From positions 1 to 30,403 of IMG/VR virus record IMGVR_UViG_3300017782_000120: a stretch of 30,403 bases of DNA. The stretch is one strand, 5' to 3'. Both the position numbers and the translations under genes were made by a program. The notes beneath the pieces were generated by a model. It saw nothing but the letters and a program-made list of their open reading frames with translations. It did not search any database and was not told the DNA's origin. Numbering within the stretch: the stretch's first letter is position 1; each line of letters opens with the position of its first letter. This document shows, piece after piece, positions 1-2,452 of the stretch. The stretch comes from a virus.

Positions 1-123
1 AAACAACAAGTTAAGTTATACAAAATAAAGGGAAATCCTAACAACCCAAGAATTATAAAAAATGATAAGTTTAAGAAGTTAGTTAAGTCTATTAAAGAGT
101 TCCCAGAAATGTTAGAAAAAAGA
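1..123. repeat. Terminal direct repeat, left copy
   Basis: These 123 bases are identical to 30281-30403. The repeat falls inside the open frame of the ParB-like gene and restores its missing start, so the simplest reading is a circular map of 30,280 bp whose ends overlap by an assembly k-mer. A true short terminal redundancy cannot be excluded from sequence alone. Confidence 0.97.
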
Positions 124-591
124 CCTATTATAGTAGATGAAGAAATGATGGTTTTAGGTGGTAATATGAGATTAAAAGCAAGTAAAGATGCTGGTCTTAA
201 TGAAGTGTGGATAGATATAGCTAAAGGATGGACAAAAGAACAGAAAGATGAATTTGTTGTAAAAGACAATGTTAACTTTGGAGAATGGGAATGGGATATG
301 TTGGCAAACGAATGGGATAGCGTAGAGCTTGCAGATTGGGGATTAGATGTTTGGCAAAACGAGAATGATATTGAAACGAGTGATGAATTTAGTTTACCTG
401 ATGGAGACAAAAACAACATAGAACAAATAACTTACACTTTAAGTAGTGAACAATGTAATATAATAAAAGAAGCAATACAGGATATAAAAAAAACTGAAGA
501 ATATAAGTACGTAGAAACTTATGGAAATGAAAACAGCAATGGAAATGCTTTATATTTATTAATAAGTGAATGGAAAAAAACAAACAATTAA
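1..591 (+). CDS. ParB/Spo0J-like N-terminal domain protein (5' end across the join)
   Basis: Base 1 is codon 2 of this gene; the ATG is at 30278 on the other side of the circular join, giving 197 aa. The first 110 residues look like a ParB-type nuclease/CTPase fold: an N-terminal NPNNPRIIKNDKF segment, then PIIVDEEMMVLGGNMRLKA, which corresponds to the GxxR region of ParB box II with the usual H/ER replaced by NMR. It is followed by the FGEWEWDMLANEWD and WGLDVW segments common in phage ParB-like proteins that sit beside DNA methylases. The C-terminal 70 residues are acidic and unassigned. It overlaps the next gene by 22 bp and heads the putative DNA-modification module. A role in site recognition or nicking is inference; no partner ParA is present, so plasmid-type partitioning is unlikely. 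Confidence 0.8.
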   Translation, partial: KQQVKLYKIKGNPNNPRIIKNDKFKKLVKSIKEFPEMLEKRPIIVDEEMMVLGGNMRLKASKDAGLNEVWIDIAKGWTKEQKDEFVVKDNVNFGEWEWDMLANEWDSVELADWGLDVWQNENDIETSDEFSLPDGDKNNIEQITYTLSSEQCNIIKEAIQDIKKTEEYKYVETYGNENSNGNALYLLISEWKKTNN

Positions 592-1268
592 AAGAAATAA
601 AAGTAAAGATTATAGACAGTAAAACTGCAAAAAGATATACTGTAGAAAATCATTATATGAAAACTTTTCCAATAGCTAAAGTCTGTTTTGGAGTTTTTTA
701 TAATAAGCTATTAAGAGGGGTTGTTACATTTGGTCTTAGTCCAAGTACAGAACAAAAAGTAAAAAAAATAGTTCCTAAAATAAATGATAATGAATTTATA
801 GAAATGCAAAGAATGAACTTGTCTGATGTTTTAGGACATAATGCAGAAAGTTATGTGCTGGGAAAAATATATAAATTATTTAAAGACAATACTAAAGTTA
901 AAATTCTTTTGACACACGCAGGAGGATGCAAAAATGATTGTGGTATTGTTTATCAGGCTAGTAGTTGGCTGTATTTTGGTAAAGAAGTTTGCAATGACTT
1001 TTACCATACTGTAAATGGGGAATATAAAAACATAATATCACCGATGCGTTTTGGTAGAGTGCCAAGAGAAATAGTAAAACAAGGAAGTCAAAAAGTTGGA
1101 GAATATTTATTTGGTGAGGGTAAAATAATAAATTCATTTAGATATTTGTATATTTATCCACTTAACAAAGGAATTAGAAGTTATTTAGAAAAAAAATGCA
1201 AAGATTATCCTAAAGATAGTCAGGTTTTTAGAAAAAATCAAGAATGGATAACAGGGGGTGACCAATAG
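570..1268 (+). CDS. Mom-like DNA-modification protein 1 (GNAT-type fold)
   Basis: This 232-aa protein resembles the phage Mu Mom family, GNAT-fold enzymes that modify adenine N6 in phage DNA against restriction. Landmarks: ENHYMK (residues 26-31), FGVF (40-43), GVVTFG (50-55), EMQRM (78-82), NAES (91-94), and a core with THAGGCKNDCGIVYQAS at 115-131, then WLYFGK. The pattern HY, FG, RM, ES and G-Y-Q/R-AS is shared with the second Mom-like gene at 1310. The last 80 residues are basic and aromatic, possibly DNA-binding. The ATG overlaps the ParB-like gene by 22 bp, so the two are probably co-translated. The 3' end (GGG GGT GAC CAA TAG) supplies the 5' acceptor strand of the tRNA-like element at 1254-1301. 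Family assignment is from recall of sequence patterns; the donor and product are unknown. Confidence 0.75.
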   Translation: MEKNKQLKEIKVKIIDSKTAKRYTVENHYMKTFPIAKVCFGVFYNKLLRGVVTFGLSPSTEQKVKKIVPKINDNEFIEMQRMNLSDVLGHNAESYVLGKIYKLFKDNTKVKILLTHAGGCKNDCGIVYQASSWLYFGKEVCNDFYHTVNGEYKNIISPMRFGRVPREIVKQGSQKVGEYLFGEGKIINSFRYLYIYPLNKGIRSYLEKKCKDYPKDSQVFRKNQEWITGGDQ

Positions 1269-1301
1269 GGGTTTTATGCAGTTCGAACCTGCACACCTCC
1301 A
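1254..1301 (+). ncRNA. tRNA-like minihelix, alanine-type acceptor, no anticodon arm
   Basis: A 48-nt element folds as acceptor stem GGGGGTG (1254-1260) with CACCTCC (1294-1300), 7 bp with G3:U70; a small D-like arm ACC (1261-1263) with GGT (1270-1272) around loop AATAGG; and a perfect T arm TGCAG (1277-1281), loop TTCGAAC, CTGCA (1289-1293). Base 73 is A and the next bases are CTA, so CCA would have to be added. There is no anticodon arm, as in the tRNA-like domain of tmRNA, whose acceptor stem is very similar. G3:U70 with A73 is the established identity set for alanyl-tRNA synthetase, which charges minihelices without an anticodon. It overlaps the end of the Mom-like gene 1 and lies 8 nt before the ATG of Mom-like gene 2. 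An attP-type remnant of tRNA-Ala is the main alternative, but it would not explain the matching 5' acceptor strand. Confidence 0.7.
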
Positions 1302-1309
1302 CTATAAAA

Positions 1310-2011
1310 ATGGGTAGAGCAAAAGAAATATTAGTTAAGGTTATAAAAAGCAAGGTAGCTAATGCCTTTATAAAGAAACAACACTATTCAGGCAAAGTTG
1401 TTCCTAACAGCACGTTACATTTTGGTTGCTTTTTAGATAATCGTTTACACGGGGTAATGAGTTACGGCAGTCCGTTTGTAAAAAAAAATGTAATTAATTT
1501 AGTTGAAGGAACAGGATGGAATGAGATGATAGAATTAAATAGAATGGCTTTTGATGAGTTTTTGCCTAAGTATAGTGAAAGTAGGTGTATCGCTATAAGC
1601 ATAAGATTAATAAAAAAAAATGCCCCACAAATCAAATGGATATTAAGTTTTAGTGATGGCTGTAGCTGTGGAGATGGAACAATATACAGGGCTAGTGGGT
1701 TTAAATTAATAGGAATAAAAGATAATAATGGTTTGTTCAATTATAATGGTGAAAATATACACGGAAAAGTCTTATGGGATAGAGGTATAAGCAAAAGTTG
1801 GTGTATTCAGGACAAAGAACTCGCAGAAATTAATTCTAGAAAAAATACATCAATAAAAAGAATAAAAGGTAAACAATTAAAGTATTTATATTTAATTGAT
1901 AAAAGTTGTAAAATAACTGTTCCAATATTGCCTTTTAGTGAAATAGATAAACAAGGGGCAGGAATGTATAAAGGTGAAAAGATAACATTAAAAGAAAGAC
2001 AAAATGCGTGA
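1310..2011 (+). CDS. Mom-like DNA-modification protein 2 (GNAT-type fold)
   Basis: This 233-aa paralogue of the gene at 570 has diverged strongly but keeps the same landmarks in order: KQHY (23-26), HFGCF (37-41), HGVMSYG (47-53), ELNRM (75-79), SES (89-91), and SFSDGCSCGDGTIYRAS (113-129). The ISKSW segment near 165 and the basic C-terminal third have no obvious counterpart of equal length in paralogue 1. The start ATG follows the minihelix element by 8 nt. Its final codon GCG and stop TGA (2006-2011) are the first bases of the tRNA-Gly-like element, repeating the gene-then-RNA arrangement of paralogue 1. Likely role: adenine modification of phage DNA, with a different donor or target from paralogue 1 (inference). 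Confidence 0.72.
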   Translation: MGRAKEILVKVIKSKVANAFIKKQHYSGKVVPNSTLHFGCFLDNRLHGVMSYGSPFVKKNVINLVEGTGWNEMIELNRMAFDEFLPKYSESRCIAISIRLIKKNAPQIKWILSFSDGCSCGDGTIYRASGFKLIGIKDNNGLFNYNGENIHGKVLWDRGISKSWCIQDKELAEINSRKNTSIKRIKGKQLKYLYLIDKSCKITVPILPFSEIDKQGAGMYKGEKITLKERQNA

Positions 2012-2077
2012 TTAGCATATACAGTAATGCGTTGGCTATTCCAAGTCAAAAAAGGGGTGCAATTCCACCATCACGCT
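2006..2077 (+). tRNA. tRNA-Gly(UCC)-like RNA with aberrant T and D loops
   Basis: Acceptor GCGTGAT (2006-2012) pairs perfectly with ATCACGC (2070-2076); base 73 is T; CCA is not encoded (CTA follows). D arm: GCAT/ATGC (2015-2018, 2027-2030) around ATACAGTA, with no GG pair. Anticodon stem TTGGC (2032-2036) with GTCAA (2045-2049) encloses the 8-nt loop TATTCCAA, giving U33, anticodon UCC and A37. The T region AGGGG-TGCAATT-CCACC carries G-U-G-C-A where T-psi-C is normal, and its stem has two mismatches; a 4-bp GGTG/CACC stem is an alternative. G1-C72, C2-G71, G3-C70, U73, C35 and C36 are the known bacterial glycine identity bases. Loss of D-loop GG and T-psi-C recalls the staphylococcal cell-wall glycyl-tRNAs, which avoid translation. 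It overlaps the end of Mom-like gene 2 by 6 bases. Confidence 0.72.
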
Positions 2078-2095
2078 CTAATACAACATAGTAAA

Positions 2096-2452
2096 ATGGA
2101 ACAAAATAGAACAAAAATAGCAAAGGAACAAATGTTAAAAGCACTAGAAGGAAGTCTAGGGATAGTTACAACAGCTTTAAAGTCTTGCAATCTATCAAGA
2201 ACTAATTTTTATAAATGGTTAAAAGAAGATGAAGAATTTGCTAAAAAAGTTAAAGATGTAGAATTAATAGCAAAAGATTTTGTAATGTCTAAATTTTATG
2301 AATGTATAAAAGACAAAGTACCTTCTGTTGTAATACACGGAACAAAGAATATTTGTGGTATGAACGAAACTAATAAAATAGATGTAACTTCAGGCAATGA
2401 ACCAATACATACACCACTTATAACATTTTATAAAACTGAGACTGAATCATAA
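2096..2452 (+). CDS. terS: Terminase small subunit
   Basis: This protein (118 aa) binds phage DNA and hands it to the large subunit for packaging. An N-terminal helix-turn-helix is visible in the first 60 residues (ALEGSLGIVTTALKSC, then LSRTNFYKWLKEDEEFA), the pattern of homeodomain-like small terminases, followed by a helical middle and a short tail. I start at the ATG at 2096 rather than at the in-frame ATG at 2027, because the latter would translate through the tRNA-like element ending at 2077, and the 2096 start has an A-rich leader. The large subunit follows directly and overlaps the end of this gene in another frame. Confidence 0.8.
   Translation: MEQNRTKIAKEQMLKALEGSLGIVTTALKSCNLSRTNFYKWLKEDEEFAKKVKDVELIAKDFVMSKFYECIKDKVPSVVIHGTKNICGMNETNKIDVTSGNEPIHTPLITFYKTETES

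Follow-up and report, generated by a model that had tools for sequence, protein, structure and literature searches.

Two tandem Mom-family genes of a tailed phage, each paired with a tRNA-like RNA, suggest an aminoacyl-tRNA-dependent modification of DNA

Our analysis of the IMG/VR record IMGVR_UViG_3300017782_000120 (30,403 nt, analysed over its whole length and referred to below as the window) did reveal two tandem genes of the Mom family, mom1 and mom2, each of which is followed by its own tRNA-like RNA, an alanine-type RNA (element 1) behind mom1 and a glycine-type RNA (element 2) behind mom2. With a probability of roughly three in four, we propose that the Mom enzymes use these RNAs, charged with alanine or glycine by the host, as donors to modify adenine in the phage DNA. 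The proposal builds on the coupling of the RNAs to Mom genes in relatives, their identity bases, covariation, the specific pairing of alanine-type RNA with Mom1 and glycine-type RNA with Mom2, action in trans and a defect of the T-stem, all of which are well supported by sequence and statistics. Hundreds of related phages bear such RNAs beside Mom-type genes.

The GNAT-fold enzymes Mom1 (570-1268) and Mom2 (1310-2011) are both encoded on the plus strand. Their matches to PF25680 reached 135.5 bits (E=2.4e-39) and 161.2 bits (E=3.2e-47), respectively, at a curated cut-off of 27.1, and both likewise matched PHROG 1384. The 3′ end of each gene is overlapped by the RNA that follows it. Two tandem Mom-like genes, each with a tRNA-like RNA behind it, had been described in a first-pass annotation made from the sequence alone, and the profile matches, the folds and the relatives confirm this arrangement, which is far above chance and is certain once relatives are compared.

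Element 1 (1254-1301, plus strand) is a tRNA-Ala-like minihelix. Its acceptor stem (1254-1260/1294-1300, GGGGGUG/CACCUCC) contains G3:U70, is followed by A73 at position 1301 and is coaxial with a T-arm of five perfect base pairs (UGCAG-UUCGAAC-CUGCA; stem 1277-1281/1289-1293, loop UUCGAAC at 1282-1288). A linker of 16 nt (ACCAATAGGGGTTTTA, 1261-1276) stands in place of the D- and anticodon arms, and the 5′ strand overlaps the final codons and the stop of mom1. No anticodon arm was found in element 1, and it is missing in nearly all of its relatives, locus L197 being a possible exception. Element 2 (2006-2077, plus strand) folds as a cloverleaf resembling tRNA-Gly(UCC), with the acceptor stem GCGUGAU/AUCACGC (2006-2012/2070-2076), U73 at position 2077, a D-arm of 4 bp (2015-2030) and an anticodon arm (2032-2049) that carries UCC in its loop (2040-2042). 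Its T-stem (2054-2057/2065-2069) pairs only with A 2067 bulged, and its 5′ strand holds the mom2 stop codon. The glycine identity bases U73, G1-C72, C2-G71 and C35 C36 are all present; the intact 5-bp T-stem and the 7-nt anticodon loop of an ordinary tRNA are lacking. The first-pass description of element 1, alanine identity bases without an anticodon arm, was borne out by G3:U70, A73 and the 16-nt linker. That of element 2 stood in part: the glycine identity and the broken T part (the bulge) were found again, the supposedly broken D loop was not, as a 4-bp D-arm is present, and the size of the anticodon loop is altered.

Taken by itself, the window gives a modest signal, with a folding z of about -2. 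Neither ARAGORN at default threshold (tRNA and transfer-messenger RNA, tmRNA) nor Rfam at gathering threshold gave a match in the window, and at low thresholds ARAGORN flooded it with chance calls, 2006-2078 among them. Element 2 scored 72.3 bits (E=2.3e-15) with our covariance model R1, for which the window had provided one of the 26 training sequences. In whole genomes R1 alone cannot tell the elements from host tRNA-Gly (matches of up to 55 bits), and the T-stem was therefore used as discriminator. A strict bulge descriptor misses many genuine elements, and adjacent Mom genes make its background estimate too high.

Among relatives, the R1 element was present at 80/80 loci of close viral relatives of Mom2, at 74/80 loci of more distant relatives, which had been retrieved with the Psychrobacter Mom, at 55/67 prophage loci detected when GTDB genomes were scanned, and at 32 of 34 further loci, the two without it being contig fragments. 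Since loci on one contig overlap, the counts are partly dependent on each other; removal of duplicates left 151 distinct glycine elements. Other R1 matches in these flanks were few and weak (27.5 bits or less) and represented ordinary tRNAs. The prophage loci, partly from metagenome-assembled genomes, carry the labels Bacteroidota, Bacillota, Pseudomonadota, Actinomycetota, Acidobacteriota, Chloroflexota, Verrucomicrobiota and Thermodesulfobacteriota, among others. The alanine-type element was found by 27 of 30 distinct Mom1-clade genes (0.06 expected). A pattern of the element-1 core DNA matched 19 contigs in all of IMG/VR, and a Mom1 gene adjoins in 19/19; this reverse search tests the coupling without circularity. 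The pairing is specific, the alanine-type RNA going with the Mom1 clade and the glycine-type RNA with the Mom2 clade. A genome search for tRNA-like folds behind Mom genes, as had been suggested in the first-pass annotation, thus finds them nearly everywhere in these two clades, with conserved identity bases.

The bacterial identity set for glycine comprises U73, G1-C72, C2-G71, G3-C70, C35 and C36, that for alanine A73, G2-C71, G3.U70 and G4-C69 (PMC9976931). Of the former, the glycine elements hold G1-C72 in 151/151, C2-G71 in 150/151, G3-C70 in 142/151 and U73 in 149/151 cases, and while G1-C72, C2-G71 and U73 are thus kept almost throughout, the other stem pairs covary. The anticodon-loop CC was recovered in at least 135/151, and in most of the others the script had picked the wrong hairpin. 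Two elements, L246:2771-2843 and L263:2775-2845, appear to be real exceptions that have lost the anticodon CC and retained the acceptor identity. In 26 diverse glycine-type elements we counted 130 double-change cells (39.3±5.5 in shuffles), with 87.7% of cells paired overall and 99.5% in the acceptor stem; a set of 96 taken from prophages and from phages at greater distance, in an alignment that was fitted to R1 and hence leans towards it, gave 524 double changes (149±12 in shuffles).

For element 1, covariation was tested on 20 variants, restricted to acceptor and T-arm and joined by hand without gaps. All 240 of 240 cells were paired, with 67 double changes as compared to 18.8±4.2 in shuffles. 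Pairs 5-7 and four of five T-stem pairs vary on both sides, G1-C72, G2-C71 and G3:U70 are unchanging, and pair 4-69 is G-C in 18 variants and G-U in two, the rest of the alanine set being invariant. AlaRS (alanyl-tRNA synthetase) requires little beyond an acceptor stem with G3:U70. G3:U70 and A73 occur in 20/20 variants, and a wobble pair kept amid such free covariation is what selection by AlaRS would give. Chargeability of the two RNAs by AlaRS and GlyRS (glycyl-tRNA synthetase) hence appears well supported from their identity bases. Two alanine elements are of intermediate form: L196:820-880 has a tmRNA-like acceptor, GGGGCUG/CGGCUCC-ACCA, and L197:3670-3750 seemingly retains a D-arm and an anticodon-like arm. 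They may mark stages through which a complete tRNA-Ala or tmRNA was pared down.

In both element types, substitutions in the acceptor stem are compensatory when compared to shuffles, and not random; random substitutions had been named in the first-pass annotation as a sign against its proposal. The covariation also bears on a possible role of the elements as attachment or packaging sites that originated from tRNA genes. Such genes are frequent targets of integrases and the elements do adjoin the gene of the terminase small subunit, but no selection on identity bases or on a T-stem bulge would be expected at such sites, compensatory covariation is present, the orientation is variable, two different RNAs go with two Mom clades, and the elements lie inside the phage gene order and not at its ends. 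We regard this origin of the pattern as extremely improbable.

The T-stem sets the glycine elements apart from ordinary tRNA-Gly. Among the 151, a canonical stem of 5 bp occurs in three, 139 pair completely when one bulge is allowed for, and 136 have A as the bulged base; the D-arm is missing from many (66-69 nt). As a control we used 40 R1 matches away from Mom in 30 host genomes, nearly all of them tRNA-Gly: 36/40 showed the canonical T-stem and none of the 40 a bulged A, the one row labelled as bulged and most of the others having C at this place, which is an artefact of runs of G or C. Pairs of the T-stem, 49-65 and 51-63 among them, are read by EF-Tu, and the cell-wall tRNA-Gly of Staphylococcus aureus is altered at these two pairs, so that it avoids EF-Tu (PMC4052509). 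The bulge of the glycine elements sits where EF-Tu binds, and a similar avoidance may be predicted for them. Together with the frequent loss of the D-arm and the lack of an anticodon arm in element 1, the bulge suggests that the elements are unsuited to translation. Codon supply by the elements was considered and set aside.

Are they then ordinary phage tRNAs after all, or decoys for host tRNA-Gly and tRNA-Ala cut by anticodon nucleases, which share with Mom only a common anti-defence neighbourhood? Phage tRNAs are common and some serve to evade tRNA-cutting defences (e.g. PMC10264068, PMC11555353); moreover, ARAGORN called some glycine elements tRNA-Gly. However, solely the glycine type occurs with Mom2 and the alanine type with Mom1, the T-stem defect is found in nearly all of the 151, the D-arm is often lost, and element 1 has no anticodon arm. 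The only other neighbour tested, a ParB-like gene, stands within 1.8 kb upstream in just 84 of the 197 Mom2-clade genes with enough upstream sequence. Taken together, we consider tRNAs or decoys quite unlikely.

The positions of the RNAs indicate that they need not belong to the mom transcript. Of the glycine elements, 34/151 lie on the strand opposite to Mom. At L008 and L053 element 1 is absent between the two Mom genes and present, inverted, after Mom2; at L016 a small gene intervenes between Mom2 and its element; and at L223 the order is Mom2, Mom1 and then both RNAs together. From these inversions and relocations it follows that the RNAs act in trans. A cis signal of the mom mRNA, be it a processing site, a terminator or a sensor controlling mom, would agree with the finding that most elements (104/151) begin at or before the mom stop, so that excision would cut the mRNA. 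Yet the inverted, moved or separated elements just described are hard to bring in line with such a signal, and the conservation falls on synthetase identity bases, which makes it a very unlikely explanation.

Regarding the enzymes, our tree recovered a Mom1 and a Mom2 clade with support of 100/99 each, and the Mom of phage Mu branches with Mom2, immediately beyond the clade whose members carry elements (97/82). The bootstrap of this tree was unsettled and its fine branching is rough; its labels of "none" for L001, L012 and L014 reflect incomplete labelling, as all three do have the element. An AlphaFold2 model of Mom2 (predicted local distance difference test score of 90) had Mu Mom as its best PDB match in Foldseek (8bv8_A, E=1.3e-16, probability 1.0). 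A sequence search of the PDB gave no match except Mu Mom, and no Fem entry was found among the 50 Foldseek matches listed for the model. The S-to-A change of the inactive Mu Mom structure 8BV8 concerns the second Ser of the motif NSESR, which is invariant (column S91) in 30 Mom1 and Mom2 sequences from both clades. GNATs usually bear an R/Q-x-x-G-x-G/A loop for coenzyme A (CoA). The NSESR Ser stands at the start of the helix where this loop is normally located, and the loop motif was not seen in any aligned Mom protein when read by eye, which fits a donor other than CoA and is no proof of it.

The same observations bear on another reading, in which the charged RNAs are indeed the donors but the Mom-like enzymes aminoacylate a protein, a precursor of the cell wall or even the RNA, so that the name Mom would be misleading. 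GNAT-fold enzymes are known that act on peptidoglycan or on proteins with aminoacyl-tRNA as donor. Such uses of aminoacyl-tRNA have been reviewed (PMC4052509). Against this stand the strong family membership, Mu Mom as the nearest solved structure, the invariance of the Ser that was inactivated in Mu Mom, the location beside the terminase, where modification ahead of packaging is expected, and the Mu product, a glycine derivative of adenine. We therefore hold an acceptor other than DNA to be unlikely.

For the proposed transfer to DNA, we infer expression, charging, EF-Tu avoidance, the donor role, DNA as acceptor and the structure of the product. The phage would encode two aminoacyl-tRNA-dependent DNA-modification pairs, whose RNAs would be transcribed and excised by tRNA-processing enzymes, with the CCA end either encoded (TCCA was found in 59/160 element matches) or added. 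Host GlyRS would charge element 2 with glycine and host AlaRS element 1 with alanine, and the altered T-stem and arms would bar EF-Tu and the ribosome, which would leave a private donor pool. The charged RNAs would then pass their amino acid to adenine N6 of the phage DNA ahead of packaging, glycyl through Mom2 and alanyl through Mom1, and the modified DNA would be protected against restriction. The Mu Mom product is adenine glycinamide (Swinton 1983, as cited in PMC3874153); a glycyl adduct of +57.02 Da would equal its mass, and the alanyl pair is predicted to add 71.04. This use of Ala- and Gly-charged phage RNAs by Mom-like enzymes had been put forward in the first-pass annotation, and coupling, identity bases and compensatory changes lend it support.

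Several points weigh against the proposal. First, 12/67 prophage loci lacked the glycine element in the R1 search (loci without it include L131, L135, L147, L157 and L163), and no such RNA was found in the whole phage genomes of Mu and other distant Mom enzymes. Mom relatives without the RNA, which according to the first-pass annotation would speak against its proposal, do exist; the RNA is therefore not universal, and Mu and the distant Mom phages would require a host tRNA or another donor. At element-less loci a host tRNA may sometimes be enough. Second, after Mu Mom the Foldseek neighbours of Mom2 are mostly CoA-dependent GNAT acetyltransferases, and the published view prefers an acyl-CoA donor, e.g. 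glycyl-CoA (PMC7824862). Third, a glycyl group moved directly onto N6 would be N6-C(O)-CH2-NH2, the reported one is N6-CH2-C(O)NH2, and a rearrangement must be assumed. By chemical reasoning, a five-membered Smiles-type N-to-N rearrangement of the N6-glycyl group could yield the known glycinamide isomer. A little more tentatively than for the window itself, we consider it likely that phages encode a widespread class of DNA modification in which Mom enzymes take glycine (in one clade) or alanine (in another) from dedicated, ribosome-incompetent RNAs for DNA adenine. This would make aminoacyl-tRNA the donor family-wide, with host tRNA-Gly serving Mu.

The individual parts of the proposed system each have known relatives. 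Mu Mom (PDB 8BV8, PF25680) shares family, fold and catalytic Ser with Mom1 and Mom2 and adds a glycine-derived group of +57 Da at adenine N6; it differs in that the Mu genome has no tRNA-like element and its donor is apparently unsettled, glycyl-CoA having been proposed (PMC7824862). The non-proteinogenic tRNA-Gly of S. aureus, used by FemX/A/B, is likewise reserved for a purpose of its own, and changes in its T-stem lower its affinity for EF-Tu (PMC4052509, PMC9976931). The S. aureus system is chromosomal, with full-length tRNAs and lipid II as acceptor, whereas the phage system is phage-encoded, with the RNA beside the enzyme and partly reduced to a minihelix, and with a proposed DNA acceptor. 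The sequence features of the phage RNAs agree with a chargeable RNA that would bind EF-Tu poorly. Fem enzymes are GNAT-fold aminoacyl transferases. The tRNA-like domain of tmRNA consists of an alanine-accepting acceptor and T-arm with G3:U70 and no D-stem. Element 1 is like this domain, and the L196 acceptor GGGGCUG/CGGCUCC resembles that of tmRNA, but element 1 has about 48 nt instead of >300 and no tag reading frame. Hypermodification of thymidine in phages attaches free amino acids to kinase-activated hydroxymethyluracil, with neither tRNA nor Mom; like the proposed system, it places amino-acid-derived groups on phage bases as anti-restriction.

To our knowledge, no system is on record that employs tRNA-like RNAs for the modification of DNA. 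We found no tRNA-dependent DNA modification in the full texts of an open-access library, and part of this may already be described elsewhere. While Mom enzymes, dedicated cell-wall tRNA-Gly and alanine minihelices are familiar, their combination, with RNA-borne amino acids for DNA modification, was not found there. If true, it would tie the chemistry of translation to that of DNA, offer an answer to the donor question of Mu Mom, whose product has been known since 1983, predict a new base, an alanine derivative of +71.04, and indicate that a natural aminoacyl-RNA donor can shrink to about 48 nt.

A published genome already contains such RNAs. In Psychrobacter phage vB_PmaS_Y8A, the interval from Mom to terminase holds two glycine elements in tandem, both lacking a D-arm and both with the CCA encoded (L096:2662-2800; OQ059336 7786-7924), which were overlooked by the authors of this genome, who stated "No tRNA genes were identified" (PMC10434257). 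Paired glycine elements occur at L149 and L190 too. A different mini-tRNA (L130:3734-3795, TAGTCACACCA) follows a Mom2 relative on a record labelled Tenericutes; it has a D-arm, a T-arm, A73 and encoded CCA, and no clear anticodon arm. It fits neither the glycine nor the alanine set and perhaps accepts a third amino acid. Tandem Mom2-type genes were seen in clostridial prophages and some viral contigs (L140-L151, L259, L270), the element, where found (several of L140-L151), being behind the second copy. A third, divergent Mom-like gene (L108:7005-7481, 29% to Mom1) lies ~2.4 kb upstream of a Mom1/Mom2 pair.

The 30.4-kb record belongs to a tailed phage and includes terminase and portal genes, among others; its left end holds, in this order, a ParB-like gene, the two Mom genes and the terminase small subunit. 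The latter (2096-2452, plus strand; phrog_4044, E=2.7e-5) probably starts at ATG 2096 rather than at the mechanical start 2027. The ParB-like gene (ParB_N/nuclease-type; 1-591, plus strand), which is truncated by the window start and directly upstream of Mom1, matched phrog_940 with E=5e-24 and PF02195 with E=5.8e-4, under the Pfam cut-off. It may be a guide or a regulator of the modification, and its arrangement with Mom recurs in phage Y8A.

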